Shown here piece by piece: positions 3,197 to 31,231 of a stretch of 32,406 nucleotides of DNA. The notes under the pieces are model-generated. The model did no database searches and was not told where the DNA came from. It saw nothing but the letters and a program-made list of their open reading frames with translations. Made by a program: the position numbers and the translations under genes. Within the stretch, counting starts at the first letter, position 1. Each line of letters opens with the position of its first letter. The stretch is from a virus. Location of the stretch: IMG/VR virus record IMGVR_UViG_3300025131_010135, positions 1-32,406 of that record. One strand, given 5' to 3'.

Positions 3197-3968
3197 ACAT
3201 ATTTCTTTCTCTGCAATTAAAAATTGGGCGAAGTGCCCATTCTATCACAAGTTAACTTATCTTGATAGAATAAAGGGTTTCGTAGGGAATGAATATACAG
3301 CTTTTGGCTCTGCAGTACACAGTGTTGCAGAAAAAGTACTTTTAGAGGAAAATATAGATCCTCCGGAGTATTTTAAGCACATGTTTTCAGAAAACCTTAA
3401 AGAGCTTAGTGCAGATGGCATAGAGGTGAGACAAGACTTAATTAATCAAATGCACCGACAAGGTGTCGAACTTTCGACTTTAATTAAGGAATCTGTCAAA
3501 GAATACTTCGGAGAAGAATATGAAGTTGTCTCTGTCGAAGAGCGCTTACAAGAACCTATCAAGGAGTTCGTAGAAAAAGAATACGACTTCAAAGGTTTTA
3601 TAGACCTGGTATTAAAAACACCAGATGGTAAGTATCACGTTATTGATTGGAAGACTTGTTCCTGGGGCTGGGATGGAAAAAGAAGAAGTGAGCCCATGAA
3701 TACTTATCAGTTAATTTTCTATAAGCATTATTTCGCACTCAAGCACAATATCGACCCAGAAGATGTCGATGTGCACTTTGGATTATTGAAGAGAACTGCT
3801 AAAAAAGATAAGGTTGAGTTGTTTAAAATTACTAGTGGCAAAAAAAGAACTGAAAATGCTATTAAACTTTTGAACAAAGCATTGTATAATATTACCAATG
3901 GCCACTATATAAAAAACAAATTGGCTTGTCGTGGCTGCGAATTCTACAAGACCGAACATTGCACATAA
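3108..3968 (+). CDS. PD-(D/E)XK nuclease, Cas4/RecB-like, with 4Fe-4S cysteines
   Basis: The 286-residue protein has the signature order of Cas4/AddB-type nucleases. ISFSAIKNWAKCP includes C43. H71 in GSAVHSVAE is followed by D166 (GFIDLVL), D180 and K182 (VIDWKT), and the helix Q201-Y205 (QLIFY). Three C-terminal cysteines follow at 274, 277 and 285. One N-terminal plus three C-terminal cysteines is the usual 4Fe-4S layout that staples these domains closed. It probably cuts DNA ends as a 5'-3' exonuclease in phage recombination or host DNA breakdown. The first 30 residues are Gln/Lys-rich and precede the conserved domain. The ATG at 3108 lies 89 bases inside the upstream gene and has no clear ribosome site, so the exact start is uncertain. 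The family call is strong. Confidence 0.9.
   Translation: MNKANLQPQKKKAQPQQGSQEQPKQQRQVEHISFSAIKNWAKCPFYHKLTYLDRIKGFVGNEYTAFGSAVHSVAEKVLLEENIDPPEYFKHMFSENLKELSADGIEVRQDLINQMHRQGVELSTLIKESVKEYFGEEYEVVSVEERLQEPIKEFVEKEYDFKGFIDLVLKTPDGKYHVIDWKTCSWGWDGKRRSEPMNTYQLIFYKHYFALKHNIDPEDVDVHFGLLKRTAKKDKVELFKITSGKKRTENAIKLLNKALYNITNGHYIKNKLACRGCEFYKTEHCT
3125..3192 (+). repeat. T-free A/C-rich dual-coding tract with A7 run
   Basis: These 68 bases contain no T on the + strand and few G. They encode a Thr/Lys-rich tail in one frame and a Gln/Lys-rich N terminus in another. An A7 run lies at 3133-3139. The transcript here should be almost unstructured. Confidence 0.8.
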
Positions 3969-3977
3969 GAGGTAAAA

Positions 3978-5237
3978 TTGGATAAAAAAATAAAGGTTCT
4001 TACGTTGAGTGATCACCCGTTATCACCTTCAGGCGTTGGAACGCAAACAAGATACGTTATAGAAGCTCTACTAAATACCGGCAGGTATGAGGTTATTAGC
4101 CTAGGCGGGGCCATTGGTCATCATGATTATAAACCGCAAAAAACTGACGTCTATGGGGACGACTGGATAATATACCCTGTCGATGGGTACGGAGGTCAAG
4201 ACGATATTAGAGCGATTCTAAGAAACCAAAAACCAGATATTGTTTGGTTTATGACGGATCCAAGATTCTGGGGCTGGTTATGGCATATAGAAAATGAAAT
4301 TAGACCACACGTTCCTATGATATATCACCATGTTTGGGATAATTATCCTTATCCACATTTTAACAAGCCTTATTATGATTCAAACGACGTCATCGTTACA
4401 ATTTCTAAAGTAACCGATGATATAGTGAGAACAGTATCTCCAGACGTAGAATGCGTTTATAACCCACATGCAGTCAATTCAGAGATTTTTCGACCCCTTT
4501 CTGATGGTGTTATAAACACATTTAAAGCAAATACGTGGAAAGAGGATGCTGGTAAATTTACTTTTTTCTGGAATAATAGAAATGCTCGTCGCAAATTGAG
4601 CGGCAGTATTGTTTGGTGGTTCAAAGAATTTCTTGATAAAGTTGGTCACGACAATGCAAGATTAATTATGCACACAGATCCTGATGATGTACATGGACAA
4701 GATTTGTTTGCTATAATCCATCAACTTGGTTTGACAAATGGAGAAGTCTCTTTTTCTCAAGCGAAGGTAACACCAGAAGAACTATCAATGCTTTACAATA
4801 GTGTCGACTGTACAATTAATATTTCAGATGCAGAAGGCTTCGGCCTCGCAACTTTGGAATCTTTGTCATGCGGCGTACCAATCATTGTCAATATGACTGG
4901 TGGGCTTCAACAACAGGTGACTGATGGCGAGGAGTGGTTTGGTATAGGAATTGAGCCGGCTTCGAAGGCCGTGATTGGTTCTCAAGATGTACCTTACATT
5001 TATGAAGACAGAGTGTCAAAAGAAGATTTTATCAATGCTCTTCTAAAAATGTATAATATGAGCAGAGAAGAAAGAAAAGCACTAGGTAAGAAAGGTCGTG
5101 AATACGTTATGAAGAACTATAACTTTGAAAACTTTAATAAAAAGTGGATTGAAATTTTTGATAACACTTATAAAACACACGGCGCGTGGGAAAGTAGAAA
5201 AGGTTATAAAAGCTGGGAACTATTGGAGGTTGTTTAA
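3978..5237 (+). CDS. GT-B glycosyltransferase (GT4-like)
   Basis: The start is TTG at 3978, with the ribosome site AAGAGG at 3967-3972; no upstream in-frame ATG fits. The 419-residue product begins with a Rossmann-type strand and a glycine loop, VLTLSDHPLSPSGVGTQ (7-23), as in GT-B retaining transferases. It carries DAEGFGLATLESLSCG (284-299), whose E286 and E294 form the EX7E motif that binds the nucleotide-sugar. The basic NNRNARRK segment (199-206) supplies the usual phosphate-contacting R/K. It opens the 14 kb sugar island and ends with TAATG overlapping the next transferase, so the two are probably made together. The acceptor and donor cannot be read from sequence. Confidence 0.9.
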   Translation: MDKKIKVLTLSDHPLSPSGVGTQTRYVIEALLNTGRYEVISLGGAIGHHDYKPQKTDVYGDDWIIYPVDGYGGQDDIRAILRNQKPDIVWFMTDPRFWGWLWHIENEIRPHVPMIYHHVWDNYPYPHFNKPYYDSNDVIVTISKVTDDIVRTVSPDVECVYNPHAVNSEIFRPLSDGVINTFKANTWKEDAGKFTFFWNNRNARRKLSGSIVWWFKEFLDKVGHDNARLIMHTDPDDVHGQDLFAIIHQLGLTNGEVSFSQAKVTPEELSMLYNSVDCTINISDAEGFGLATLESLSCGVPIIVNMTGGLQQQVTDGEEWFGIGIEPASKAVIGSQDVPYIYEDRVSKEDFINALLKMYNMSREERKALGKKGREYVMKNYNFENFNKKWIEIFDNTYKTHGAWESRKGYKSWELLEVV

Positions 5238-7318
5238 TGAAGAAAGTTTTTGTAAAGGGACCCATATTTTCAAGATCTGGATATGGTGAGCAAGCAAGGT
5301 TTGCCTTAAGGTCTCTTAAAAAATATCCAGATAGATTTGATATTTATGTTGAAAATATCCGATGGGGAAACACCGGATGGATTGCTGAAGAAACCGAAGA
5401 GAGAAGGTGGATTGATAAATTAGTTTTAAAAACTATGGATCATTTACAGAGAAATGGGGACTTTGATATATCAATTCAAATAACAATCCCACAAGAGTGG
5501 GAAAGATTAGCCCCTATTAATATTGGTTATACGGCAGGTACAGAGACAACTAAGATGTCAGACATTTGGGTGCAAAAATCAAATATTATGGACAAAATTA
5601 TTGTTCCGTCTGAACACTCTAAGTTCGCATTTGAAAATACTGTTGCACAAACGTATAACGAAGCTACAAGACAGGAAATGCAAACCAGGTGTGAAACCCC
5701 AGTAGAAGTCGTTAACTTCCCAGTTAGAAAAACTGGAACGACAGATATGAATTTGAACTTAGAACCAGATTTTAATTTTCTAGCAGTATCTCAGTGGAGC
5801 ACTAGAAAGAATATAAAAAAGACAATAAAATGGTTCTTAGAAGAGTTTAAGAATGATGAAGTTGGATTAGTTCTCAAGATTAACACTGCAAATGATTCAA
5901 TAATGGATAGAGGCAGGACCTTAAATAAGGTTAAGAAGTACGTCAATGACAGTGAGTTCGAGGGTAAAAAATGTAAGGTTTATATTTTGCATGGTACCTT
6001 GACTGAACAAGAAATGAACGGATTATATACGAATCCAAAAATTAATGCATTCATCAACATTTCTCATGGAGAGGGCTTCGGCCTTCCTGTGTTTGAAGCA
6101 GCCCATAATGGTTTACCAGTTATTACAACAAATTGGGGAGGGCAAGTTGACTTTATGAACGCACCCAAGAAAGACAAAAAAACCAAGAAGGTTCGAAATC
6201 GCCCGCACTTTGCGACAGTTGATTATGATATACAACCAATACAAAAAGGCGCAGTTTGGGAACCAGTACTAATTGAAGGATCGATGTGGTGTTTTCCGAA
6301 AAAGTTCAGTTATAAAAATGCCCTAAGAAACGTATATAAAGATTATGGCACCTATAAAAGCCAAGCTAAAAAACTACAAAAACACATATTAAAAAATCTA
6401 GAAGAGCAAGGTCAATTTGACAAATTTGCAGATGCTATTTCCGAGGGTGAGGACCTGAGTGATGTAAAATATGTTTTTGTGAGTGATTATTTCGCACAAG
6501 AACTACAGGGAGGAGCAGAACTCAGCTTGCAAACGCTGATAGAGATTTGCCCTGCAAAAGCACTTGGTGTGAAATCCCTAAGCGTAACGCCGGAATTAAT
6601 CGAACAACTTAAAGAAAGCAGGTGGGTATTCACGAATATATCCCAGCTAGACGCATCGATGTTTGACGTATTGAAAGAACATGATGTGGAGTATTCCTTT
6701 ATTGAATACGATTATAAGATGTGTAAACACAGAAATCCTGTTCTTTATGAGTTTGTCGAGGGCGAAAAATGTGACTATGCTGAAACAGAATTAGGACAAA
6801 ACATCAAAGACTTTATGCTCAATGCAAAAAGTGTCTTCTTTATGTCGGAAAAGCAAAAGCAGATTTATTGCGAGACTTTTTCTGAATTAAATAATCACAA
6901 TACACATGTCTTGTCTTCTATGTTTAATGATCAGTCTTTGGATTATATTCAAAAGCTTAACGAGAAGGAATATGAAAGAGAAAAGTGGGTTGTGTTAAAT
7001 TCCAATAGTTGGGTTAAAGGAGTTGATGCATCGGAACAATGGTGCAAAGACAACAACCTTGAATATGAACTAGTCGGAGGACTAGGATATATTGACTTTC
7101 TTAAGAAAATGAGGCGAGCGAAGGGAGTTTGTTTTATGCCAGATGGTTTAGATACTTGTCCTAGGTTTGTAATCGAAGCCAAGCTTTTAGGTTGCGAGTT
7201 GCAACTTAATGAAAATGTGCAGCATGTTGAAGAAGAATGGTTTACAGAATCAAGTACACATATGGTCAGTTATCTCAGATCACGAAAGGATTATTTTTGG
7301 CAGAAGGCATTTAATTAA
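5237..7318 (+). CDS. Two-domain GT-B glycosyltransferase, 693 aa
   Basis: The product is about twice the length of an ordinary GT4 enzyme and has two GT-B-like halves. Half one (1 to about 400) starts with VKGPIFSRSGYGEQAR and has SHGEGFGLPVFE, with E279 and E287 in EX7E spacing. Half two starts near 409 (KYVFVSDYFAQELQGGAE), another N-terminal GT-B loop. It carries MPDGLDTCPRFVIEA (634-648), in which D639 and E647 occupy the same spacing. Half two may be a complete second transferase or a degenerate one. Its start overlaps the previous stop by one base, and its own stop overlaps the next start (TAATG). A bifunctional enzyme adding two successive sugars is plausible. Confidence 0.88.
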   Translation: MKKVFVKGPIFSRSGYGEQARFALRSLKKYPDRFDIYVENIRWGNTGWIAEETEERRWIDKLVLKTMDHLQRNGDFDISIQITIPQEWERLAPINIGYTAGTETTKMSDIWVQKSNIMDKIIVPSEHSKFAFENTVAQTYNEATRQEMQTRCETPVEVVNFPVRKTGTTDMNLNLEPDFNFLAVSQWSTRKNIKKTIKWFLEEFKNDEVGLVLKINTANDSIMDRGRTLNKVKKYVNDSEFEGKKCKVYILHGTLTEQEMNGLYTNPKINAFINISHGEGFGLPVFEAAHNGLPVITTNWGGQVDFMNAPKKDKKTKKVRNRPHFATVDYDIQPIQKGAVWEPVLIEGSMWCFPKKFSYKNALRNVYKDYGTYKSQAKKLQKHILKNLEEQGQFDKFADAISEGEDLSDVKYVFVSDYFAQELQGGAELSLQTLIEICPAKALGVKSLSVTPELIEQLKESRWVFTNISQLDASMFDVLKEHDVEYSFIEYDYKMCKHRNPVLYEFVEGEKCDYAETELGQNIKDFMLNAKSVFFMSEKQKQIYCETFSELNNHNTHVLSSMFNDQSLDYIQKLNEKEYEREKWVVLNSNSWVKGVDASEQWCKDNNLEYELVGGLGYIDFLKKMRRAKGVCFMPDGLDTCPRFVIEAKLLGCELQLNENVQHVEEEWFTESSTHMVSYLRSRKDYFWQKAFN

Positions 7319-8067
7319 TGAGCGTACATTTCACCATTATTATACCTGCCTATAATGTGGAGAAGTGGGCTGAAAAGAATCTAAAATCTGCACTAATGCA
7401 AAATTATGAAAACTACAGCATATTTTATGTTGACGATGCATCTACTGATAATACGAGTCGTATTGTAAACGAAGCGCTCGATAAATACAGTGATACAAAA
7501 GCTAAATTTACAATGTTTAGCAACAAAGAAAACAGAAAAGCACTAGCAAACATAATCAAATGTGTTAAATTAGCCAGAGATAAAAGTGTTATTTTAACTT
7601 TGGACGGTGATGACTGGTTACCAAACCCAGACGTTTTAGCTACGTTGAACGAGGTATATAGTAATGAAGACGTGTGGATGACAACTGGGTCTTATTTAGA
7701 GACAACAACTGGGGAAATAGGCCCACCACGCGTCGGCCCAGAGTTTTGGGAAGGAAATATTCGACATAAGATATGGGTTTTTTCTCACTTGAGAACATTT
7801 CGGAAAGAACTATTCATGAAAATTGACAAAGCAGATATGACAGATCATGATGGTGAGATTTATAAATGCACCTTTGATCAAGTAATGATGTATCCGATGG
7901 CAGAAATGGCCGGCCCAAAACACTACAGATCGATTAATCAGGTACTGTATATATATAATAGAGCGAACCCCTTGTCTGTTGACCGAGTTCAAAGACCAGA
8001 CCAATTGAGAATTGAAAAGGAAATAAGAAATAAGACTCCGTATGAGAAAATGGAGAGCCTCCGATGA
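7318..8067 (+). CDS. GT-A glycosyltransferase (GT2-like)
   Basis: This 249-residue protein starts with the GT2 core: FTIIIPAYNVEKWAEKNL (5-22), FYVDDASTDNT (37-46) and the metal-binding LTLDGDDW (93-100). DGDD corresponds to the DXD site that holds the nucleotide-sugar diphosphate through a divalent metal. There are no membrane segments, so it is a soluble cytoplasmic transferase. Length is normal for a minimal GT2 domain. It is translationally coupled on both sides: TAATG with the upstream gene and a 4-base ATGA overlap with the 2OG oxygenase-like gene. Donor and acceptor are unknown. Confidence 0.92.
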   Translation: MSVHFTIIIPAYNVEKWAEKNLKSALMQNYENYSIFYVDDASTDNTSRIVNEALDKYSDTKAKFTMFSNKENRKALANIIKCVKLARDKSVILTLDGDDWLPNPDVLATLNEVYSNEDVWMTTGSYLETTTGEIGPPRVGPEFWEGNIRHKIWVFSHLRTFRKELFMKIDKADMTDHDGEIYKCTFDQVMMYPMAEMAGPKHYRSINQVLYIYNRANPLSVDRVQRPDQLRIEKEIRNKTPYEKMESLR

Positions 8068-8789
8068 CAAACAGAGGGCAAGAATTTAATACAAAATTTG
8101 ATTTTTATATGCCCTTCGGCCCAGGCCTCGGCCGATTCGAGCTGCCTCGACATGTCGTCGATGCTCTGATACATGTAACTGACCAAATACTGGCCGATGA
8201 AGACAGGGAAAGTATGGGTAGTAATCTAGCGGGCCAGATTATGGAAGAGTCTTTAATACCTGCGAACGTCCTGAAAAAAACAGGATTAGAAGGGGTGTTC
8301 GAACTTCTTACAAAAAATTATGTGGAACAATTTTATAATCAGAATGTCTATAACACAGACACTGCCCCCGTGGAAGCAAAGATTGATGTGGGTCCATGTT
8401 GGATTGTGAGTCAGTATGAAAATGAATATAATCCAGCACATTTCCACACGAAATGTACACTTTCTTCTGTATTATATTTGAAAATACCAAACAATGAGCG
8501 CAGAGAAATCCCCAACAAACCAGATCTAGACGGCGCCATCGAATGGATCCATCATTCAACAGTTCCTGGTACTTTAGAAACTGGCACTTTTGGGTGCAAA
8601 CCAGAAGTGGGGGTTCTCTATATCTGGCCATCACAATTGTTACACACTGTATACCCATTCCAGGGCTCAGGCGAAAGAAGAAGCGTTTCTTTCAATGCTA
8701 CTCATACAATTGTAGGAGACGATATTATGGAAATGATGAAGGAAGAAATGAGTAGCATTGAAGACAAACGCAAAAAACAAAAGAGTTGA
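8064..8789 (+). CDS. Putative 2OG-Fe(II) oxygenase-like protein
   Basis: The 241-residue product shows features of the phage 2OG-Fe(II) oxygenase group. AHFHTKCTLSSVLYLKIPN has H126 and H128, and LYIWPSQLLHTVYPF brings H194. GERRSVSFNATH contains R206, the likely 2-oxoglutarate-binding arginine. The usual iron triad is HX(D/E)...H; here the middle residue appears as H128 rather than Asp, as happens in this subfamily, so catalytic competence is uncertain. It sits between a GT2 and a methyltransferase in the sugar island and could hydroxylate a sugar or a protein side chain that is then glycosylated. Such proteins are common in marine T4-like phages. The fold is fairly secure; the substrate is unknown. 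Confidence 0.7.
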   Translation: MTNRGQEFNTKFDFYMPFGPGLGRFELPRHVVDALIHVTDQILADEDRESMGSNLAGQIMEESLIPANVLKKTGLEGVFELLTKNYVEQFYNQNVYNTDTAPVEAKIDVGPCWIVSQYENEYNPAHFHTKCTLSSVLYLKIPNNERREIPNKPDLDGAIEWIHHSTVPGTLETGTFGCKPEVGVLYIWPSQLLHTVYPFQGSGERRSVSFNATHTIVGDDIMEMMKEEMSSIEDKRKKQKS

Positions 8790-8791
8790 CA

Positions 8792-9409
8792 ATGAAAAAA
8801 AATTACTGTATAAAAGAAGGTTACGTTTCTAGAGAAGAATATCACCAGAATGTCCAAATTGGCTCTGACGATACATTTCAGGATGAAGTTTATGCACATG
8901 CAAGGAAAATATTAGACAAGCACGGCTATAACAGGGTGCTTGATATTGGATGTGGTTCAAGCTTTAAACTGATTAAATATTTCAGGGATAAACCTTTTAC
9001 CGGTTTGGATCTAGAGCCCAATCTTAGTTGGTTAAAGGAGACATATCCATATTTTGATTACAGGTTATCTGACTTTGGCAATCCACCAAAAGACGATTTC
9101 GATCTTGTTATTTGCTCAGACGTAATTGAACATGTGCTAGATCCCGATCAAATGATGGAATTCTTTAATACTATTAATTTCAAGCGCCTAGTATTATCAA
9201 CACCAGAAAGGGCAATTATCCAACAGGTGCAAAGACAAATGGGCTGGGATGTAGAGGAAAACGGACCTCCTGCAAATGTTTGCCACGTAAGAGAGTGGGC
9301 AAAAGATGAATTCGCACACTATACTTCTCAAACATTCGATATTGAGGAACATTTTATAACACCAAAACAAGTAGAGTGTCAGGTCGTTGTAGCTACAAAG
9401 AAAAAATGA
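8792..9409 (+). CDS. Class I SAM-dependent methyltransferase
   Basis: The 205-residue product starts at ATG 8792; a TTG at 8786 would add two residues and is less likely. Motif I is RVLDIGCGS (48-56), followed by the post-I strand GLDLEP (71-76), VICSDVIEHV (106-115) and LVLSTPER (133-140). This is the standard order of Methyltransf_11/23-type enzymes. The EHV motif is typical of small-molecule and sugar methyltransferases. It overlaps the next gene by ATGA and lies among glycosyltransferases, so a sugar hydroxyl or a lipid-linked acceptor is the likely substrate. There is no membrane or DNA-methylase motif (no DPPY or PC), which argues against DNA modification. Confidence 0.9.
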   Translation: MKKNYCIKEGYVSREEYHQNVQIGSDDTFQDEVYAHARKILDKHGYNRVLDIGCGSSFKLIKYFRDKPFTGLDLEPNLSWLKETYPYFDYRLSDFGNPPKDDFDLVICSDVIEHVLDPDQMMEFFNTINFKRLVLSTPERAIIQQVQRQMGWDVEENGPPANVCHVREWAKDEFAHYTSQTFDIEEHFITPKQVECQVVVATKKK

Positions 9410-10332
9410 ACATATTCCTAGAAAATGTGGTATTGGGTTCGAACACAGGCCCAAATCATTTCGGCGCAAAGCTAGCTCGATACGCAGAAAAGAAAGGGCA
9501 CCCCTGTTTTGTACAAACAGACTTGCTTTTTTCTGGAATCGATGTGCATTTAAGTTTTATAGAATCACACAAGAGATTAGCACATATACCGATGATCCAA
9601 CGTCTAGATGGTATATATTTTGATAGTGGGAAAGATTACATGACACAGAACAAGAGGATTATTAATACATATAGATCTGCAGACGGTATTATTTTCCAAT
9701 CGGAATATAGCAAAAATTTATCGTTTAAACATTTTGGTGAGTGTGACAATTATACAATTATTAATAATGGAGCAGACATAGAGTTTATTAATACAATTAA
9801 ACCATTAGAAAACAAACAACTAGAATCATATGATAATGTGTGGTGCTGTGCATCAAACTGGAGAGGGTGGAAACGAATGCCTGATAATATCAGATATTTC
9901 CTGGAGTTCTCTGGGGACAATGATTGTTTAATAGTTGCCGGTAACCCTCTGCAAAACGAGATAATAGAACATGAAAGAGTTTTTTATACGGGCCAATTAG
10001 ATCCAAAGACACTGTTTTCTATATTTAAAAAATCAAAATATTTTATACATCTAGCTAGATACGATGCATGTCCTAATGTCGTTGTGGATGCAAGAGCGGC
10101 AGGTTGCCATATTATATGTTGTTCCGAAGGAGGAACAAAAGAAATAGCAGGAAAGGGCGCAACTATCGTTGTTGAGGAACCATGGGATTATAGTCCCGTT
10201 GATGTCGATAGTCCTCCAAGATTAGAATTTAATAATATCGTAGAAAATGATATAATGTCTAATATACATATGGATAATGTAACAGATAGATATATAAAAT
10301 ATTTAAAACAAATAAAGGAGAACACAAAGTGA
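9406..10332 (+). CDS. GT-B glycosyltransferase with Asp in place of EX7E
   Basis: The ATG at 9406 overlaps the methyltransferase stop (ATGA) and fits a GT-B N terminus, MNIFLENVVLGSNTGPNHFG. The 308-residue protein has IFQSEYSK (96-103), NWRGWKR (151-157) with the R/K pair, and LARYDACPNVVVDARAAG (216-233). In that last block the usual E...E of the EX7E motif is D220 and D228 at the same spacing. The protein is shorter than a typical GT4 enzyme (about 370). A ribosome site (AAAGGAG) for the next gene lies in its 3' end. It is likely an active or specialised transferase, but the Asp substitutions leave some doubt. Confidence 0.8.
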   Translation: MNIFLENVVLGSNTGPNHFGAKLARYAEKKGHPCFVQTDLLFSGIDVHLSFIESHKRLAHIPMIQRLDGIYFDSGKDYMTQNKRIINTYRSADGIIFQSEYSKNLSFKHFGECDNYTIINNGADIEFINTIKPLENKQLESYDNVWCCASNWRGWKRMPDNIRYFLEFSGDNDCLIVAGNPLQNEIIEHERVFYTGQLDPKTLFSIFKKSKYFIHLARYDACPNVVVDARAAGCHIICCSEGGTKEIAGKGATIVVEEPWDYSPVDVDSPPRLEFNNIVENDIMSNIHMDNVTDRYIKYLKQIKENTK

Positions 10333-11174
10333 GAGTACAACAATATGTCGACAATTTTAAAATGGCCTTAGATTTAGCAGACAATGGAATATCCAGGGTG
10401 CTATATCAGGTCGGAGGCCGAGAACACGCGTTTATGGGCCTTTTAAAGGACACGGTAAAGGAAGGTATGGTTTGCCTTGATTTAGGCGCTAATATCGGCT
10501 ATACAACGCTCTATATGCTTAAAAACGTTGGGGAATCCGGATTTGTTTATGCAATAGAACCAGATACACACAACGTTGAATTGCTAGCACAGAATGTCGA
10601 AGGCAATAATTATGATGATATTTGTGAGATTACAGAGGGCGCCATATCTTCCGAGGATGGAACGTTAGAATTTTGGTTGGCAGACGCTCCCAATCTGAAT
10701 AGTTTTAAAAAGACACACAGAAGCACACATAAGATAAGTGTTAAGTCATATACTTTAGAGACCTTTTTGAAAGATAGAAAGTTTCCTAATTTTATCAAGA
10801 TGGATGTCGAGGGACATGAAGTTGATATTTTCAAGGGTGGCTTGAACTATTTTAAAAACAATGCTGGTCATTGCAATATCTTATTGGAGGTGCACCCATC
10901 TTTGTATGGACCTGATAATGACTTCGCTGCGATACTGAGAGAATATTTCTCTATTGGATTCAAGCCGAAATTTGTAGTCACAACACCAATTCCGCAACCT
11001 AAGCTATTCAAAGATGCCGGCTACGAACCAATCAAAGCAGTGCAAACAGATGGGTTCCACAGAGGAGTCTATGGACCCATCTCAGAAGATCATCTTGTTG
11101 AATTTGCATGCAAAGAAAATCCAGAAGGCAACAGTAAGAAAATCGTTCGAAGTTTCATGTTAACAAGGGACTAA
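10329..11174 (+). CDS. FkbM-family SAM methyltransferase
   Basis: The start is GTG at 10329, overlapping the previous stop (GTGA), with AAAGGAG at about 10314-10320. The 281-residue product has VCLDLGANIGYTT (48-60) as motif I, YAIEPD (74-79), and the FkbM signature FIKMDVEGHE (155-164). FkbM enzymes O-methylate sugars and polyketides, and they are common in surface-polysaccharide and NDP-sugar clusters. The setting among glycosyltransferases fits methyl capping of a glycan. The C-terminal 90 residues beyond the Rossmann fold are not recognised. Confidence in the family is high; the acceptor is unknown. Confidence 0.92.
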   Translation: MRVQQYVDNFKMALDLADNGISRVLYQVGGREHAFMGLLKDTVKEGMVCLDLGANIGYTTLYMLKNVGESGFVYAIEPDTHNVELLAQNVEGNNYDDICEITEGAISSEDGTLEFWLADAPNLNSFKKTHRSTHKISVKSYTLETFLKDRKFPNFIKMDVEGHEVDIFKGGLNYFKNNAGHCNILLEVHPSLYGPDNDFAAILREYFSIGFKPKFVVTTPIPQPKLFKDAGYEPIKAVQTDGFHRGVYGPISEDHLVEFACKENPEGNSKKIVRSFMLTRD

Positions 11175-11609
11175 ATGTATTTTCCTAATGATTTAGATAG
11201 TTTTGGTAATTCTGATCTGGCCAAACAATTTGTGTTAGATTATAATGAAGAAGCCGACAGTAACCGATCTTATGCCGGAAATCAACAGGTTTTAAAAAGA
11301 CTATTCAACAACTATAAAGATAACGAAGAGTTTAAATATTATTATTTAGATAAAAAATACTGCTTTTGGGAATTTGAAGAGCATGCGAACTCATTATATG
11401 AACCGCCTCGACGTCTAAGCCACACCAATCTCCCCCGGATATCTAAGATTTCCTTGGAGCAGAGAGTTAAAATGTTTGAAAGAATAATTTCTGGCGCATC
11501 AATTATTGCAGCCCGCCGCCCAGGCCAATTTATCGCAGCAGATCAATTCCCAGAAATATTAAAAAAACAGAAGGAGACAAAAAAGAATGAAGATAATGTC
11601 GCATTGTAA
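11175..11609 (+). CDS. Hypothetical protein sharing its N terminus with a later gene
   Basis: The ATG directly follows the FkbM stop. The 144-residue product begins MYFPNDLDSFGN, nearly the same as the first 11 residues of the sialyltransferase-like protein at 12711 (MYFPKDLDNFG). At DNA level 32 of the first 36 bases agree. After that the two diverge. The rest is polar with an aromatic-rich stretch (KYYYLDKKYCFWEFEEH, 55-71) and a basic segment ending in KKQKETKKNED. No domain is recognised. Its end overlaps the next gene by 23 bases. It may be an accessory protein of the sugar island or a remnant of a duplicated transferase. Confidence 0.7.
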   Translation: MYFPNDLDSFGNSDLAKQFVLDYNEEADSNRSYAGNQQVLKRLFNNYKDNEEFKYYYLDKKYCFWEFEEHANSLYEPPRRLSHTNLPRISKISLEQRVKMFERIISGASIIAARRPGQFIAADQFPEILKKQKETKKNEDNVAL

Positions 11610-12705
11610 TTTTGGATATTTTAAATATTGCGACGGCCTGGTAAAAAGTATACGGCACTCAGGAAATGATCACCATATAATATTAAAATTATTAGACTTT
11701 AATAAAGAACAAAAAAAGTTTGCAAAATCTCAGCTCAAAGATATTAAAGATATCGATTTAGATTTTATTGATTCGAAAGAGACAGAATTTTGGCTTGAAA
11801 CTAAATCTAACTTGAACGCCAACACAGAAAACCACCCCGGCGCCGCCACCCTGACCTGGACCGCAACCGAGGATGACACACACAAGGCTAAAGTATTTAA
11901 ACTCTATACAGACTGTCGTCCTTTTCTGATATATGACACTTTAAGAAAATATGATGATGATATATTGGCAATTTGTGCCAACTCTTTAGTATTGACAAAA
12001 TTAGAAGATTTGGAGGCCACTCTCAAAAAAAAGGATCTTGTATTTAAAGAACGAGAAACTTGGTTTGGATTAAAAACAATAGAAGATGTTGCAAATCTTT
12101 CCAAGGGAAAAAATCTGGAGGCAAGCCTCCTAGATTGTCACACCGCAATGATCGCCGGCGCCCACCCGTCACATGAAATAAATGAATATGTGACAATGTG
12201 GGAATATATGAAACAAAAAGATGGCAAATTAAATCTTGAACAAACATGTCACTTGCCAATTAGTAGGGTTGTCCTCATCGGCGCCTTAGGAATAGCAAAC
12301 AATCCATTGACTAAAGAATTTATAAAAACTTGGAAAGATTATATTTTACAGGAAAGAGAATTACATGAACCATTTTTTGCCTCTTTTATGGCAGGGGGAA
12401 CATTAAATGAATTCTTCCGTGATCAGCTTGGCCCAAATCAAAAAATTGAAATAGTCGGAACGGTTGCGGATAATACCCGCGAGGACGATTCTTTTATTAG
12501 AGCTTATATTAATGTTGGGCTCTCTGGTCATTTTGGTCGTAAAATGACAAAAGAAACAAATCTATGGGATGGCAACATTGTTGATTCATCCTGTACTAGT
12601 AATAAAATATGGTTCGCTAAAGGTTCAGTTAAACACGGAGGCGGCAGTGATGAGAAAGGCAAAAGATATCTTGAAAAATTAAAATATTTTATTGAAGGAG
12701 AATAA
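11587..12705 (+). CDS. Putative nucleotide-sugar transferase (GT-A-like), 372 aa
   Basis: The ATG at 11587 follows AAGGAG at 11571-11576 by 10 bases. The product starts MKIMSHCNFGYFKYCDGLVKSIR, a pattern seen at the N terminus of GT-A enzymes that begin with a short strand and a helix (CNxGY..Y...L..SI). A run KYDDDILAICANSLVL (near 119-134) could hold a DXD-type metal site. Late in the protein, FFRDQLGPN and SVKHGGGS resemble acceptor-side loops. These are weak signals, so the call is tentative. It sits just before the sialyltransferase-like gene. An unusually GC-rich patch lies inside it at about 11832-11875. It could be an unrelated structural enzyme. Confidence 0.5.
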   Translation: MKIMSHCNFGYFKYCDGLVKSIRHSGNDHHIILKLLDFNKEQKKFAKSQLKDIKDIDLDFIDSKETEFWLETKSNLNANTENHPGAATLTWTATEDDTHKAKVFKLYTDCRPFLIYDTLRKYDDDILAICANSLVLTKLEDLEATLKKKDLVFKERETWFGLKTIEDVANLSKGKNLEASLLDCHTAMIAGAHPSHEINEYVTMWEYMKQKDGKLNLEQTCHLPISRVVLIGALGIANNPLTKEFIKTWKDYILQERELHEPFFASFMAGGTLNEFFRDQLGPNQKIEIVGTVADNTREDDSFIRAYINVGLSGHFGRKMTKETNLWDGNIVDSSCTSNKIWFAKGSVKHGGGSDEKGKRYLEKLKYFIEGE

Positions 12706-12710
12706 ACTAT

Positions 12711-13409
12711 ATGTACTTCCCTAAAGATTTAGATAATTTTGGTATCGTATTAAAAGGTTCAAGCGTTAAACATCTTGGTGATTATGCTGACAAATTTGAT
12801 CATTGTTTTATGGTCAATAACTTTGATAGAAATAACGATAACAATAAATCTGAATGGTCGACCGTTGCACCTCACTTAAAGGGCAAGGATATTGTACATT
12901 TTGTAAATAGATTAACAACTGCTCCGCTTTTAGAGAAACATTATAAAGAATTGAATATAAGACATGTACAATTTTCTAAAACAGATATTGATTCCGCCTT
13001 AGCAATTGTGAAGCCTTACTATGAACAATGCGGCCTAAGATGCCATTTTCTACCGAAAGAGGCGCTTAAATATAATGACTTTTTTGATGACAAATATTAT
13101 CTTAAGCCTGGTGATTCTAACTACAAGACAAAACACCCAAACACGGGAGTCTTGGCAATAATTTATGCAGCAGGTCTTTTAAAGCCAAAACACCTGTGGG
13201 TTGTGGGCTTAGATTTCTATCAGAGCGACTATCTTTTCAGAAGACCATGGCAAACTTCATTAGAGAATCAACAGCTTAAAATGCTCAACACAGACATGAC
13301 TGGCCATTTTATAGATATGGTTAAAAGAACCCCGGATGTTCAATTTCACTTAGTAACAAAAGCAACAACTGTTCCAGAAATGAAGAATCTAGAAGTTTTT
13401 CAAGTTTAA
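12711..13409 (+). CDS. Putative sialyltransferase (GT42-like)
   Basis: The 232-residue product resembles bacterial GT42 sialyltransferases (Cst-I/II type) in motif order. A GIVLKGSSVKHLG loop (11-23) stands where GT42 has its NGPSL loop. It is followed by HCFMVNNFD (31-39), where GT42 has the F-R-x-N-x-F strand. Then comes HPNTGVLAI (142-150), leading into HLWVVGLDFYQ (161-171), matching the STG...I-L-G-I-D-F-Y block that binds CMP-sialic acid. The next two genes encode a sialate synthase and a CMP-sialate synthetase, which strongly supports the assignment. The protein is shorter than GT42 enzymes (about 260-290). The start ATG at 12711 has AAGGAG at 12694-12699. Linkage and acceptor are unknown. 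Confidence 0.65.
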   Translation: MYFPKDLDNFGIVLKGSSVKHLGDYADKFDHCFMVNNFDRNNDNNKSEWSTVAPHLKGKDIVHFVNRLTTAPLLEKHYKELNIRHVQFSKTDIDSALAIVKPYYEQCGLRCHFLPKEALKYNDFFDDKYYLKPGDSNYKTKHPNTGVLAIIYAAGLLKPKHLWVVGLDFYQSDYLFRRPWQTSLENQQLKMLNTDMTGHFIDMVKRTPDVQFHLVTKATTVPEMKNLEVFQV

Positions 13410-13434
13410 GATTTTTTAATATTTGTGCTATAAT
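13406..13434 (+). promoter_or_regulatory. Sigma70-like promoter with extended -10 before neuB
   Basis: TATAAT at 13429-13434 is a perfect -10 box with the extended-10 TGC just before it. TTAAGA at 13406-13411 matches the -35 TTGACA at 4 of 6 with a 17-base spacer. Transcription would be expected to begin 6-8 bases after the -10, at about 13440-13442, which is the start codon of the next gene. No ribosome site precedes that codon. The box also partly resembles a late promoter (ATAATATA). Confidence 0.5.
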
Positions 13435-13440
13435 ATATTC

Positions 13441-14133
13441 ATGGCAATTACAATTATTTCCGAAATTGGAATAAATCATAACGGCGACTTCCGGAAAATA
13501 GAAGAGCTTATACGTCAATCAAAAACCGGTGGTGCAGATTATGCAAAATTCCAGCTTTATGATTCCATCAGGGTTTTTGGAGATGAATCTAGAAAGCAAA
13601 ACGAGTTTACTTTTCAACAAGTTGAGCGAGTTAAGAAGATATGTGATCACTATCAGATTGAATTTTTTGCTTCTGTTTTCGATGAAGAAAAACTGGATTG
13701 GTGTGAAAAACTGGATGTTAATTTGTATAAAATAGCTAGCCGAACTGTTGTTAAGGAACCTGACTTGTGTAGGCAGATTATAGCAACAAATAAACCGGTT
13801 TATATATCTTTGGGCTTTTGGGAAGAACCCGGGTTGCCATTCGAGGCAAAAAACATAAAGTATTTAAATTGTATATCAAAATACCCAACAAGTATTTTAG
13901 ATTTTAAAAATTTTGAATATAATGATAATATTATAGGTCTAAGCGATCATTCTTATGGAATCTCATTTCCTTTGTTTAATATAGCTCAAGGGGCAAGGGT
14001 AATTGAAAAACATTTTACCCTCAATAAAGGCATGCCAGGAAATGATCATATTGGGTCAATGAATCTTAAAGAATTACGATTGCTTAGAGAATATGGAGAT
14101 CAAGTTGAAAGTATTGGGCGTAATATTAGCTAG
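13441..14133 (+). CDS. neuB: Sialic (nonulosonic) acid synthase, NeuB-like, lacking SAF domain
   Basis: NeuB enzymes condense phosphoenolpyruvate with a 6-carbon N-acyl amino sugar to make a nonulosonic acid. The 230-residue product keeps the TIM-barrel motifs: SEIGINHNGD (7-16), DYAKFQ (33-38), LYKIASR (95-101), LNCISKYPT (142-150), LSDHSYG (167-173), VIEKHFTL (187-194) and DHIGS (202-206). Metal-binding histidines and the catalytic-region Lys and Glu appear intact. Normal NeuB proteins are about 340 residues and end in an antifreeze-like SAF domain, which donates an Arg to the partner active site. That domain is absent, and the next gene begins 41 bases before this stop, so it is not simply displaced. 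The ATG at 13441 is fixed by the family N terminus. Confidence 0.9.
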   Translation: MAITIISEIGINHNGDFRKIEELIRQSKTGGADYAKFQLYDSIRVFGDESRKQNEFTFQQVERVKKICDHYQIEFFASVFDEEKLDWCEKLDVNLYKIASRTVVKEPDLCRQIIATNKPVYISLGFWEEPGLPFEAKNIKYLNCISKYPTSILDFKNFEYNDNIIGLSDHSYGISFPLFNIAQGARVIEKHFTLNKGMPGNDHIGSMNLKELRLLREYGDQVESIGRNIS

Positions 14134-14812
14134 AGGCGGCTCCAAAGGAGTCCCAAAAAAGAATATAAAAGAAATCAATGGAAAACCTTTGATCGCACAC
14201 ACAATAGATGCTGCCTTAAGATCTGAAGTCTTTGATCAATTAGTTGTTAGTACAGATTCGGAAGAAATTGCAAATGTAGCCGCAGACCATGGCGCCGAAG
14301 TCCCTTTTATGCGTCCAGATGAATTAGCACAAGATCATATCTGGTCTCGTGACGCTCTGAAGCATGCCGTGTTGGAGTCTGAAAAAGTTTACAACAATGT
14401 TTACGACTATGTAATTGAGTTACCTTGTATTGCTCCGCTTAGGAACGAAACACATATTAGAGAAGCGTACGAAAAATTAAGAGATAATGCTTGTGATAGT
14501 GTAACATCCTTTGTTCAAATGCAAGATAAGCACCCCGTTCGTATGAAAAGGATAATTGATGATAGGATTTATGATTTTTGCAGAGAATATCCTGAAGGCG
14601 AAGGAAGCAGAAGACAAGATTTAGAGCCGTGTTATATTAGGAACGGTGCCATATATGCAATGACAAGAGACTGTATCGTGGAAGAATTTTCAAGACACGG
14701 CAAAGTGTGTTTACCATATGTAATGAAAGAGTCAGAGTCTGTGAATATCGATACAATGTTAGATTTTAAATTAGCAGAAATTTTATTAAAAGAGAAAACA
14801 AATGAGAGTTAA
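14093..14812 (+). CDS. neuA: CMP-N-acylneuraminate cytidylyltransferase
   Basis: This enzyme activates a nonulosonic acid as CMP-sugar using CTP. The 239-residue product has the signature LARGGSKGVPKKN (12-24), VSTDSEEIA (52-60), RPDELAQD (74-81), SRRQDLEP (172-179), IRNGAIY (182-188) and ESVNIDTMLDF (215-225), all in the expected order and at full length. The ATG at 14093 lies inside neuB; a TTG at 14105 is an alternative start, but either choice overlaps. The 41-base overlap and the neighbouring GT42-like gene indicate a synthase, activation and transfer set. CMP-legionaminate and CMP-pseudaminate synthetases share these motifs, so the exact sugar is open. Confidence 0.95.
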   Translation: MEIKLKVLGVILARGGSKGVPKKNIKEINGKPLIAHTIDAALRSEVFDQLVVSTDSEEIANVAADHGAEVPFMRPDELAQDHIWSRDALKHAVLESEKVYNNVYDYVIELPCIAPLRNETHIREAYEKLRDNACDSVTSFVQMQDKHPVRMKRIIDDRIYDFCREYPEGEGSRRQDLEPCYIRNGAIYAMTRDCIVEEFSRHGKVCLPYVMKESESVNIDTMLDFKLAEILLKEKTNES

Positions 14813-15722
14813 ATTTGATTGCCCTATAAGCTTTATATGTGTTACAAGCTTGACAAGAACCATGGTCCAGAATAATATGTACATGGCACTAGATGATCCG
14901 GAGTGCGTTATTGTCAATCCAGGAACAAAACAATTTTTAAGTAATGATTATTTTGATAAATTTCCATCTCTAAGAGTCGTCGGTACACCTTCGACTGGAG
15001 TAAATCACTTGGACATGGAATATCTTAATAGAAGGGGAATTGTTGTCAAAAGTTTGCTAGATGATAGACAAACTCTGGAAAATATTCATGCTTCTGCAGA
15101 ATTTACTTGGTTGCATATTATGAATGCCTGCAGAAAGTTTAGTTTAGCGTTATACTCGAAAGAAGACTGGCGCTCCACGGAAAACGAAAATTACCTAAGA
15201 TCACATGAATTGAGCGGTAAAAAACTTGGTATCGTTGGTATGGGGAGAATAGGTCAAAAACTAGTAAAATATGCAAGAGCTTTTGGTATGGAGGTGTTTT
15301 GGTATGACCCATATGTAGAAGACGATGAAAGACTGTTTTGCAAATTCTCAAATAAAGTTAAGAGCTTAAATGATCTGAGTCATTGTGACATATTATCAAT
15401 TAACTGTTATTTGACGAACGAAACTAAGGAATTAATCACTTATGAATCTTTGGATGATTTTAAGACTGGCTTGGTAGTGGTTAACACTTCAAGAGGAGAA
15501 GTGGTTAATGAAGATTATATCTATGATTTGGTTGTTACTGACGAAATTATATACTCGGCCGACGTTCTTTGCAACGAACAAGACTTGGGAACACTTCATC
15601 ACTCGAAGCTTTTCTGTCTAGAGCATGATGGAATTACAATAACCCCTCATGTCGCTGGAGCCACTTACGAAAGTCAGATGAAAGCACTGGAATCAGTATT
15701 AAAATTGTGTGCAAATGTATAA
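14802..15722 (+). CDS. D-isomer-specific 2-hydroxyacid dehydrogenase
   Basis: The 306-residue product belongs to the NAD-dependent D-2-hydroxyacid dehydrogenase family (as in SerA, phosphoglycerate dehydrogenase). It has PSTGVNHLD (63-71), the Rossmann loop GIVGMGRIG (143-151), NTSRGE (228-233) with the catalytic Arg at 231, and TPHVAGAT (281-288) with the catalytic His at 283. There is no C-terminal ACT domain. It overlaps neuA by 11 bases. In this setting it may interconvert a 2-keto and 2-hydroxy acid that becomes a sugar substituent, or reduce a sugar precursor. A housekeeping serine role is less likely for a gene embedded in a phage sugar operon. Confidence 0.9.
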   Translation: MRVKFDCPISFICVTSLTRTMVQNNMYMALDDPECVIVNPGTKQFLSNDYFDKFPSLRVVGTPSTGVNHLDMEYLNRRGIVVKSLLDDRQTLENIHASAEFTWLHIMNACRKFSLALYSKEDWRSTENENYLRSHELSGKKLGIVGMGRIGQKLVKYARAFGMEVFWYDPYVEDDERLFCKFSNKVKSLNDLSHCDILSINCYLTNETKELITYESLDDFKTGLVVVNTSRGEVVNEDYIYDLVVTDEIIYSADVLCNEQDLGTLHHSKLFCLEHDGITITPHVAGATYESQMKALESVLKLCANV

Positions 15723-16395
15723 AGTAACTGTTGGCATATGCTGCTATAAGCAAAAAGAGTGGCTTTATCGATGTCTTCGAAGTTTGTCAAATCAAACAAT
15801 CCCAAAGGATGATTTCGAAGTTATTGTTGTAAATGACGATCCAACAGATAATTTAGAAGAGGTTTGTAAGCCTCTGAGACAATATATCAATATAAAGTTG
15901 ATCAATAATAAAAGAAACTTAGGCTTACCCGGATCTCTAAATGAGATTCTTAAAAATTCACTTGGTAAATATTTTGTGAGGGTAGACTGCGATGATTATG
16001 TTTCAAGACATTTTTTATATTTTTTATCTACATTTTTAGATATGAATTCAGGACCTAGAGTTATGGGAACAGGGCAGAGCTATCAAGCAGTTGCATGTGA
16101 TTATTTTAAAGTTAATAATGCTGGAGAATTTTTAAGTCGACATTTATCTAAACAAGAGCCTATTGCATGTGGTATAATGTTTACTTACGAGTCTCTTTGC
16201 AATATCGGCTTTTATAACGAAAACTTTAAAATGCGCGAAGGGCACGATCTATTAAAACGATATGAAAATAAATACAACCTATACAACTTGCCTCTTCCTC
16301 TATACAAATATAGAATGCACAAAAACAACAGAACAAACAACGAAGAAGAAGTGGCAAAATACGATAACAAATTAAAGGAGAACAATAATGGCTAG
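15715..16395 (+). CDS. GT-A glycosyltransferase (GT2-like)
   Basis: The ATG at 15715 is preferred over a GTG at 15709 because MYKVTVGICCYK starts the GT2 fold. The 226-residue product has CCYKQKEWLYRCLRSL (9-24), VIVVNDDPTDN (37-47) and the metal-binding VDCDDYVS (90-97). GHDLL (176-180) is a candidate for the catalytic-base region. It overlaps the dehydrogenase end by 8 bases and the next gene start by 8 bases. No membrane segments are present. It is a second GT2 enzyme in the island, clearly different from the one at 7318. Confidence 0.9.
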   Translation: MYKVTVGICCYKQKEWLYRCLRSLSNQTIPKDDFEVIVVNDDPTDNLEEVCKPLRQYINIKLINNKRNLGLPGSLNEILKNSLGKYFVRVDCDDYVSRHFLYFLSTFLDMNSGPRVMGTGQSYQAVACDYFKVNNAGEFLSRHLSKQEPIACGIMFTYESLCNIGFYNENFKMREGHDLLKRYENKYNLYNLPLPLYKYRMHKNNRTNNEEEVAKYDNKLKENNNG

Positions 16396-17275
16396 GTGCT
16401 TAGTTACAGGACATAAAGGGTATATTGGAAGCAAATTACATGATGAATTGGTAAAACAAGGACACGAGGTGATGGGCATAGATAAGGCTTCAGCTGAATC
16501 AGATAATATATTATTAACATCAGCAGGACTTAGAGGTGATAATGCTTTGAAATCTGCGTATGGTAAATTCAAGCCAGAATACATTTTTCATCTAGCATGT
16601 ATTCCCAGGGTTGCTTATAGTGTTGAAAACCCTGTTTCGACTATGGAAAACAACATATTAGCCTCTAGCATTGTTTATGATTTCGCAAGAAAGGTTGGCG
16701 CCAAACGCGTAATTTATTCAAGCTCTTCCTCGGTAGTAGGGAACGGCGACGGCCCAACTAGCCCATATGGACTTCAAAAGCTCGTATCGGAAATGGAATG
16801 TAAACTATACGCTGATTTGTATGGCGTTGATACAGTTGGGCTAAGATACTTTAATGTATATTCAGAAGATCAAACTGTGGATGGCCCTTATGCAACCGCT
16901 GTTGCAAATTGGATGCACTTTATCCGACAAGGACAAGATCCGTTTATTACTGGAAACGGCGAACAAAGAAGGGACATGTTATATGTTCACGATGCTGTGT
17001 CTGCTAATATTTTTTGTATGAATCGAAAAGAAGATTTTAAGGGCGCCCATTATGACGTCGGAACAGGCACTAATATCTCTCTAAATGAAATGAGAGAAAT
17101 AGTCTGGAAACATCACCCAAAAGTGATTTTTAAATATAAGGACGCCCGAGCCGGCGACGTTTTATATACAAAGGCCAACACAAAACCACTGGGCGAGTTA
17201 GGATGGAAGGTTGATATGACATTAAGCAAAGGCTTAGATCGTTGTTTTAAGGGAGTAAGAAATGGGAAAGCTTAA
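16388..17275 (+). CDS. NAD-dependent sugar epimerase/dehydratase (extended SDR)
   Basis: The ATG at 16388 follows AAAGGAG (16375-16381). The 295-residue product has the SDR dinucleotide loop TGHKGYIGS (7-15), the catalytic Ser cluster YSSSSS (110-115), and SPYGLQK (125-131) providing the Tyr and Lys of the YX3K site. Extended-SDR signatures follow: LRYFNVYSEDQ (152-162) and GNGEQRRDMLYVHD (189-202). This fits a UDP-hexose 4-epimerase or a dehydratase making a nucleotide sugar for the island's transferases. The usual G-x-R-Q after FNVYG is changed to SEDQ, which may mark different specificity. It overlaps the UDP-glucose dehydrogenase-like gene by 14 bases. Confidence 0.92.
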   Translation: MARCLVTGHKGYIGSKLHDELVKQGHEVMGIDKASAESDNILLTSAGLRGDNALKSAYGKFKPEYIFHLACIPRVAYSVENPVSTMENNILASSIVYDFARKVGAKRVIYSSSSSVVGNGDGPTSPYGLQKLVSEMECKLYADLYGVDTVGLRYFNVYSEDQTVDGPYATAVANWMHFIRQGQDPFITGNGEQRRDMLYVHDAVSANIFCMNRKEDFKGAHYDVGTGTNISLNEMREIVWKHHPKVIFKYKDARAGDVLYTKANTKPLGELGWKVDMTLSKGLDRCFKGVRNGKA

Positions 17276-18125
17276 TATTGGAATTATAGGGAACGGCTTT
17301 GTGGGCCAGGCCATCGCCTTTGGGTTTAGTCCAGTCGCGAGAGTCAGGATTTACGATGTAGATCCAATCCGTTGTGTTGATAGTTTTGACGAAACCGTAA
17401 ATCGATCTGACATTTTATATGTTTCGGTACCGACACCCATGAATTCGGATGGCACAATTAACCTAGATATTGTGAACAATGTTTGTGAAAATATAATGGA
17501 AGCGAGAACGAGAAAGGACAATGTTATTGTTCTTAAGTCCACCATGATTCCGGGAACAACCGACAAACTAGCAGAAAAGTTCCCATCTCTTGATTTTGTA
17601 TACAATCCTGAATTTCTTACTGAGAGAAAAGCTAAATTTGATTTTTTAAACCAAGCTAGAATCGTTCTTGGAGGCAATTATAAATCAGTACAAAAAGTTA
17701 AGGAATTGTACGTTAAGAGATTTAAACACTGTAATTTTGTTGAGACTGATTACAAAACAGCAGAGTTTATAAAATATTTAGGAAATGTATTTTTTGCATT
17801 AAAAGTTTCATTCGCAAACGAAATGTCGCTTTTGGCAAACGAAATAGGAGTTGATTGGGATAAAGCACTTTATGGTTTTGTCTCAGACGGGAGAGTCGCA
17901 GACTCTCACTTACAAGTACCAGGCCCAGATGGAAGACTTGGCTTTGGCGGAAGTTGCTTCCCCAAAGATTTAAATGCTTTCATAGCTTTAGCGAATGATG
18001 TTGGCGTCAACGTTAACACACTTAAAGCTGCCTGGCAAACTAATTTAGAGGTCCGCCCAGAAAAAGATTGGGAAAAACTTAAGGGCCGTGCTGTAACAAA
18101 GGAGAAACAAAATGAGCGACACTAA
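17262..18125 (+). CDS. Short UDP-glucose/GDP-mannose 6-dehydrogenase-like protein
   Basis: The family oxidises a nucleotide-sugar C6 alcohol to a uronic acid. The 287-residue product has the NAD loop IIGNGFVG (8-15), SVPTPM (55-60), NPEFL (115-119) with the catalytic-region Glu, FIKYLGN (169-175) with the conserved Lys, and GFGGSCFPKD (228-237) with the catalytic Cys at 232. Full enzymes run to about 390-450 residues; here the C-terminal UDP-binding domain is missing and the protein stops soon after the central helix. AAGGGAG at 17249-17255 supports the ATG at 17262. It may use a different substrate or form a reduced catalytic unit. Confidence 0.85.
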   Translation: MGKLNIGIIGNGFVGQAIAFGFSPVARVRIYDVDPIRCVDSFDETVNRSDILYVSVPTPMNSDGTINLDIVNNVCENIMEARTRKDNVIVLKSTMIPGTTDKLAEKFPSLDFVYNPEFLTERKAKFDFLNQARIVLGGNYKSVQKVKELYVKRFKHCNFVETDYKTAEFIKYLGNVFFALKVSFANEMSLLANEIGVDWDKALYGFVSDGRVADSHLQVPGPDGRLGFGGSCFPKDLNAFIALANDVGVNVNTLKAAWQTNLEVRPEKDWEKLKGRAVTKEKQNERH

Positions 18126-19613: not shown

Positions 19614-19630
19614 GCAAATTCTATTTATTG

Positions 19631-19638
19631 TATAAGTA
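19631..19638 (+). promoter_or_regulatory. Late-promoter-like box TATAAGTA
   Basis: TATAAGTA matches the T4 late consensus TATAAATA at 7 of 8 positions. It lies in one of the few gaps between genes (19614-19650), right after the late sigma factor gene and before the baseplate genes. The start codon at 19651 is only 13 bases downstream, so the leader would be very short; this lowers confidence. Confidence 0.4.
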
Positions 19639-19650
19639 AGGGTTTTTATT

Positions 19651-22525: not shown

Positions 22526-22533
22526 GATTTTTT

Positions 22534-31206: not shown

Positions 31207-31231
31207 AACTATTTAAAAAGAGGACTAAAAA

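Follow-up and report, generated by a model that had tools for sequence, protein, structure and literature searches.

A 16-gene glycan island with a nonulosonate-type branch in a T4-like phage, and the nuclease-glycosyltransferase anchor that it shares with related phages

The window analysed, meaning the whole stretch of DNA, is a complete IMG/VR record of 32,406 bases. According to the ORF listing, 16 plus-strand ORFs fill positions 3978-18125 exactly, and nearly all of them overlap or lie within 15 bases of each other. The island and its flanks are given below; genes are referred to by their start positions, and percentages are those of the counterparts in related viral contigs (G002, G003 and G004 where named).

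303, left of the island: PhoH-like gene
3108..3968, + strand: PD-(D/E)XK nuclease, T4-like exonuclease (Pfam PF12705, E 3.4e-20; phrog_69)
3978..5237, + strand: GT4a, anchor glycosyltransferase 1 (PF00534, E 1.3e-11)
5237..7318, + strand: GT4b, anchor glycosyltransferase 2 (PF00534, E 1.9e-6)
7318..8067, + strand: GT2 glycosyltransferase (PF00535, E 8.3e-21)
8064..8789, + strand: 2OG-Fe(II) oxygenase (2OG-FeII_Oxy_5, PF13759, E 3.6e-19; phrog_81)
8786..9409, + strand: SAM methyltransferase (Methyltransf_23, PF13489, E 1.2e-9; 75-80% in G002 and G004)
9376..10332, + strand: GT4 glycosyltransferase (PF00534, E 1.5e-7)
10329..11174, + strand: FkbM-family (sugar O-)methyltransferase (PF05050, E 8e-19; TIGR01444 above cut-off)
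11175..11609, + strand: 144-aa protein (ORF listing)
11587..12705, + strand: 372-aa protein (ORF listing)
12711..13409, + strand: remote GT42-like (CstII-like) putative CMP-sugar transferase (profile against PDB, hhalign)
13423..14133, + strand: NeuB-type synthase, TIM-barrel catalytic core only (PF03102, E 1.4e-37)
14093..14812, + strand: NeuA/PseF-type CMP-sugar cytidylyltransferase (CTP_transf_3, PF02348, E 1.9e-25)
14802..15722, + strand: D-2-hydroxyacid dehydrogenase (2-Hacid_dh_C, PF02826, E 9.7e-37)
15709..16395, + strand: GT2 glycosyltransferase (PF00535, E 3.7e-24)
16388..17275, + strand: SDR nucleotide-sugar epimerase/dehydratase (Epimerase, PF01370, E 1.1e-45; 72-74% in G002-G004)
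17262..18125, + strand: UDP-sugar dehydrogenase-like protein (UDPG_MGDP_dh, PF03721 and PF00984, motif GFGGSCFPKD)
18903..19613, + strand: late sigma factor-like protein, flanking the slot on its right (phrog_234, E 1.2e-4; 77-85% in relatives)
30820..32404, + strand: baseplate wedge genes, gp25-like and gp6-like (30820 and 31232; phrog_261/43 and phrog_10646/219)

Thirteen of the 16 island proteins matched glycan-related Pfam families above the cut-off, mostly with strong scores, and the products of 11175, 11587 and 12711 were without a Pfam match. The sequence-only reading had described a co-directional, overlapping run of 16 glycan genes with early genes on its left and baseplate genes on its right. 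The run was borne out by the ORF listing, the Pfam families and the recurrence in relatives, and the flanks by PHROG and Pfam matches (PhoH and nuclease versus late sigma factor, gp25 and gp6). Each of the sugar-modifying enzymes it had named, i.e. the SDR, the UDP-glucose dehydrogenase-like enzyme, the 2-hydroxyacid dehydrogenase, the two methyltransferases and the 2OG oxygenase, was matched by Pfam. Its count of about seven glycosyltransferases held for five clear Pfam cases; 12711 is only remotely GT42-like and 11587 matched no library.

GT4b (693 aa) consists of an N-terminal GT4 part and a C-terminal domain of approximately 300 aa. In 17262, the N-terminal and central domains are present and the C-terminal UDP-binding domain is missing, with equal protein length in all relatives. 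GT4 9376 occurs in two copies in G004. No orthologue of the 8064 oxygenase was found in the closest relatives, G002 and G004. The 11175 protein had neither a Pfam nor a PHROG match, and no counterpart was found in relatives. For 11587, no match was obtained in Pfam, PHROG, NCBIfam or the PDB, and a related-locus search seeded with it returned nothing; its position is taken by a different ORF in G002 and G004 and by a 57% counterpart in G003. An AF2 model of this protein built from 2 sequences was discarded (pLDDT 31).

The PhoH-like gene and the nuclease on the left, together with the late sigma-like gene and the gp25/gp6-type baseplate on the right, indicate a T4-like myovirus. The closest cultured baseplate was that of Flavobacterium phage immuto (35%). 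Upstream of gp25, positions 22534-30816 encode a 2,760-aa protein without a family match. It was 34-40% identical in relatives, compared with mostly 60-80% for their other genes, and a LysM-like stretch was seen by eye near residue 390. This protein is a candidate acceptor of the glycan. A further ORF at 2080-2787, which is kept in relatives, carries a HELAH zinc-peptidase motif and matched a metallopeptidase-type Pfam domain (ATLF) below the cut-off (E 7e-5).

The same block, which the earlier reading had proposed to look for in related phage genomes, was found entire at the same slot in two viral contigs, G002 (44.8 kb) and G004 (185 kb). G003 (40.7 kb) contains the right half, beginning at the 11587 gene, and G001 a more distant, rearranged version. 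Fourteen island genes recur at the same place in independent contigs, the exceptions being 8064 and 11175; megablast of the island against phages gave no match. Most island proteins were 62-82% identical in G002 and G004. The dN values of most genes were about 0.11-0.30, and because synonymous sites were saturated in most genes, dN/dS was not computable and only dN and the saturation were used. These values point to purifying selection. The recurrence in independent contigs and the selection together indicate that the island is old and selected, and not a product of chance or misassembly.

The interior of the island differs between relatives. In G003, identity to the window was 45% for neuA, 33% for the dehydrogenase and 30% for neuB, and the order of these genes was different, whereas the neighbouring GT42-like, SDR and UGDH genes were 76%, 72% and 75% identical. 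The comparison indicates that the sugar-making trio of G003 has been exchanged, the 2-hydroxyacid dehydrogenase moving along with neuB and neuA; the dehydrogenase stands beside neuB and a CMP-transferase gene in all of G001-G004. G002 is without NeuA and has in its place a 590-aa NeuB-CTP_transf_3 fusion (L020:1338-3107), which contains a second NeuB-type domain. The extra genes of G004 encode a methyltransferase, a 694-aa nucleotidyltransferase/HAD/kinase-like protein and a transaldolase (PF00923). The transaldolase-family and 694-aa proteins lie on the minus strand between the GT42-like gene and neuB (L027:10047-10763 and 10747-12828) and possibly form an unusual precursor route. The neuB of G001 (L002) is split over two reading frames near residue 40, by a frameshift or a sequencing error. 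NeuB was detected in 7 of the 12 records tested (G000-G005 and LR756508) and was not found in the other five, immuto, Mel-JY01, RM378, G018 and G019. This patchy distribution indicates that NeuB is cassette content.

The left end of the island is of a different kind, the GT4 pair being far more widespread than the other island genes. The nuclease, GT4a and GT4b lie together in eight relatives (G001, G002, G004, L043, L044, L045, immuto and Mel-JY01), and nuclease 3108 is the conserved left flank of the slot. The cultured phages immuto and Mel-JY01, which infect Flavobacterium and Microcystis, respectively, have at most one gene between the nuclease and GT4a. The GT4a orthologues of slot-bearing phages were 25-73% identical, and GT4a was also found in LR756508 and in Rhodothermus phage RM378. 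The N-terminal half of GT4b adjoins GT4a in L043-L045, L051, immuto and Mel-JY01. Behind this anchor the content changes: the 158-kb contig L043 has two DegT aminotransferases and SDRs, immuto has WecE-type aminotransferase, GT2 and WcaG genes, and L051 has almost nothing between the GT4 pair and the late sigma/baseplate genes. Transketolase-like halves were seen by eye behind the GT4 pair in the same slot of L045 (15998-17734). The glycan block of immuto (vB_FspM_immuto, KNV73_gp183-gp169) shares the slot, the nuclease, GT4a (31%) and GT4b (33%) with the window. After the anchor it continues with GT2, aminotransferases, a methyltransferase and an epimerase, i.e. a WecE-type aminosugar cassette with no NeuB, and its late sigma and baseplate genes are roughly 20 kb away, whereas those of the window are adjacent. 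Judged by these gene orders, the island is not peculiar to this phage but fills a slot that is conserved in a clade of large T4-like phages, with a constant start and exchangeable cassettes. The conserved nuclease-GT4a-GT4b anchor is the most useful new fact of this analysis.

The presence of neuB and neuA, claimed by the sequence-only reading, was confirmed by family (PF03102 and PF02348) and by the active-site residues of NeuB. In the PDB, the NeuB profile matched only NeuB, PseI and SpsE structures (1e-28 to 1e-55). The best PDB match was 6ncs, a 290-residue 'sialic acid synthetase'. Residues E14, K42, K103, H176 and H197 aligned with E25, K53, K129, H215 and H236 of Neisseria NmNeuB, which are residues of the PEP/metal site, and all five were invariant in the NeuB alignment (A3). 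The SAF (antifreeze-like) domain PF08666 was absent from the window and its relatives, the 236-aa NeuB stopping after the barrel. The nearest cellular homologues were 27-33% identical and mostly 276-302 aa long, and most of them are likewise too short for a SAF domain; therefore, the short NeuB is no artefact. Many of these homologues have a cytidylyltransferase gene nearby.

Both proteins scored below every curated equivalog cut-off. NeuB reached 133.8 of 399.65 with NeuB_NnaB and 113.1 of 340.25 with PseI. The best NCBIfam model of NeuA was PseF, with 165.6 bits and a cut-off of 205.7, and KdsB models were matched weakly. As the earlier reading had noted for the window, a NeuC-type precursor gene is missing: none of nine records, the 185-kb relative among them, contains the epimerase family PF02350. 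In bacterial loci for nonulosonic acids (sialic, pseudaminic, legionaminic), the NeuB-type synthase also adjoins a CMP-sugar cytidylyltransferase. In several bacteria the NeuB beside NeuA is short, with 276-302 aa compared with 228-236 aa in the phages. Unlike these loci, the phage version lacks both NeuC and export through the membrane, and has a 2-hydroxyacid dehydrogenase linked to it.

The sialyltransferase-like protein (GT42) of the earlier reading, 12711, withstood the analysis in part. A profile of five phage sequences, run against 177,635 PDB sequences, had six CstII entries as its sole matches with E<=10 (E 0.046-0.062). The alignment spans the G-[IL]-D-F-Y motif (GLDFYQ in 12711 and GIDFYQ in CstII) and places H199 of 12711, conserved in all but one of the 5 sequences aligned, opposite CstII H188, which is the general base (PMC4202792). 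In hhalign, 12711 scored 29.3 with an independent bacterial GT42 protein from another genome, versus at most 21.5 with 104 unrelated proteins and at most 20.7 with 100 shuffles. On the other side, E stayed near 0.05 and 12711 had no family match in Pfam, PHROG or NCBIfam; the CST-I family PF06002 gave nothing even at E 10 in the window or relatives. The AF2 model from 5 sequences was poor (pLDDT 61.5), and with it Foldseek returned only Rossmann-fold proteins (E>0.004, TM about 0.3) and no sialyltransferase; the model was treated as uninformative. A profile scan added no further members to the family, and no 12711-like protein was found in 11 bacterial genomes with a short NeuB. The 12711 protein is thus best described as remotely similar to GT42, and not as a proven member.

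Of the proposed sialic-type sugar block, the following remains: the genes form a coherent unit under selection, which includes a synthase and a cytidylyltransferase of the nonulosonate type and a plausible transferase for the CMP-sugar. The evidence falls short of sialic acid in its narrow meaning, given the scores below the NeuB_NnaB, PseI and PseF cut-offs, the missing SAF domain and the weak GT42 membership. Since NeuB and NeuA fall below the equivalog cut-offs and SAF is missing, a different ulosonic acid is conceivable as the product. Kdo8P synthase, too, has no SAF domain. A keto-octulosonate or other Kdo-like ulosonic acid, or a secreted small molecule, would fit either a virion or a host-surface acceptor, and agrees with the KdsB matches of NeuA, with the breadth of 'NeuB/NeuA' as family labels and with the G004 transaldolase, which suggests an unusual aldol-type precursor. 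However, the best PDB matches of the NeuB profile were NeuB, PseI and SpsE, the best model of NeuA was PseF and the transferase gene 12711 is GT42-like, and we regard such a product as rather improbable. The chain probably ends in a sialic-acid-like sugar.

T4-like phages are already known to carry large glycan clusters, and it is the nonulosonate branch that is rare. The polysaccharide clusters of T4-like cyanophages of the P-SSM2/S-SSM6a type are large, co-directional and polymorphic between relatives (PMC7824862). Likewise, the island lies in a T4-like genome, combines multiple glycosyltransferases with enzymes that modify sugars, and varies between relatives; SDRs, several glycosyltransferase families, methyltransferases and 2OG oxygenases are common to both. 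In contrast to those clusters, the island follows a fixed nuclease-GT4-GT4 anchor and has a NeuB/NeuA/GT42-like branch, whereas neither NeuB nor sialic acid appears in that description (PMC7824862). Among 50,697 phage records, relatives of NeuB occurred in three, one of which was a bacterial contig, and NeuA occurred only in that contig. The Moritella 'phage' match, a bacterial capsule contig within the phage collection, was ignored. No report of phage NeuB/NeuA islands was found in the open-access literature, subscription papers being outside the scope of the search.

Two further loci were noted in the course of these searches. The 484-kb uncultured phage LR756508.1 (L003) encodes three GT29 sialyltransferase proteins flanking a NeuB (19256-19885, 21987-22667 and 22651-23328; PF00777, E 1e-26 to 1e-32). 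Five such places exist in that genome and none in the other phage records searched; GT29 is listed for animal enzymes (PMC4202792). At 13125-15700, the single-cell Kyanoviridae virus MH319754.1 (L004), with a cyanophage-like genome, has an unannotated NeuB, with three SDRs and a gene resembling a cytidylyltransferase close by.

The following order of events is proposed. GT4a and GT4b, encoded beside the nuclease, would begin a short sugar chain by priming it, and its outer sugars would come from the variable cassette. The hexosamine precursor would be provided by host metabolism and condensed with PEP by the SAF-less NeuB; NeuA would activate the product with CTP and the GT42-like 12711 would transfer the CMP-activated sugar. 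The GT2 and GT4 enzymes may lengthen the chain, with modification by the methyltransferases, the SDR/UGDH enzymes and the oxygenase. The acceptor would be a virion protein of the tail, baseplate or capsid, and the benefit may be antigen-like variation or masking.

In comparison with a Wzx/Wzy-type locus, the initiating polyprenol transferase (Bac_transf, PF02397) was absent from nine records, and no strong transmembrane segment was found in the 16 island proteins. As the enzymes look soluble and the initiating membrane transferase is missing, the chain is probably built in the cytoplasm, with a protein of the virion as the likeliest acceptor, although the initiating enzyme could be borrowed from the host. 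In the mycobacteriophages Che8 and Rita, capsid glycosylation has been described (Freeman et al. 2023, cited in PMC11256854). These unrelated phages share with the window phage-encoded glycosyltransferases and the virion decoration proposed here; that account describes a few glycosyltransferases and mentions neither a dedicated island for sugar synthesis nor a nonulosonic acid.

Modification of the host surface is a close rival to virion decoration. The island would then remodel LPS, O-antigen or capsule and block competing phages or the re-binding of virions to debris. This is the published reading for the 15-gene P-SSM2-type cyanophage clusters (PMC7824862) and for pelagimyophage glycosyltransferases (PMC7029224). 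Loci for surface polysaccharides typically contain FkbM, GT2, GT4, UGDH and SDR families, and the varying content among close relatives is what surface diversification would predict. However, without an initiating transferase or a strong transmembrane segment the island proteins include no flippase or polymerase, and an anchor kept in very divergent phages, with hosts such as Flavobacterium and Microcystis, is more in keeping with an acceptor carried by the phage than with diverse host lipids. We consider host-surface remodelling a credible reading that probably does not hold.

The adjacency of the anchor to the PD-(D/E)XK exonuclease in relatives could also mean that the anchor belongs to DNA metabolism and that the glycosyltransferases decorate phage DNA (a hypermodified base) against restriction. 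DNA glucosylation by phages is known from T4. However, no thymidylate-synthase/dCMP-hydroxymethylase family protein was found in G004 (185 kb), G018 or G019, the only TS-family gene among relatives being that of LR756508, and no Tet/JBP match was obtained in a search run without a positive control. To our knowledge, no DNA glycosylation system is as large as this set of 16 genes, which includes sugar methylation and a CMP-sugar branch. DNA as the acceptor is very improbable.

A virion protein is favoured over the host surface and DNA because there is no export machinery and because the anchor is kept across phages of unrelated hosts; the preference is tentative, at a little under an even chance. 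We give about an even chance to the broader reading of the island as one filling of a serotype-like glycan-assembly slot with a fixed GT4 start and exchangeable sugars, which would probably decorate the virion. Virion decoration might extend to a clade-wide serotype system on the phages' own particles, the constant GT4 pair priming a virion glycan and swappable cassettes writing the outer sugars. By analogy with the exchange of O-antigens among bacteria, the phages would then diversify through the exchange of their sugar cassettes. This extension we hold to be unlikely on balance.

For years, glycan clusters have been recognised in phages without any knowledge of their targets. The anchor is present in the cultured phages immuto and Mel-JY01, and thus the choice between virion, host surface and DNA can be tested with isolates. 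Should the acceptor prove to be the virion, the sugars of phages would vary in the manner of antigens, and the sugars that bacterial viruses make themselves would come to include nonulosonic acids.
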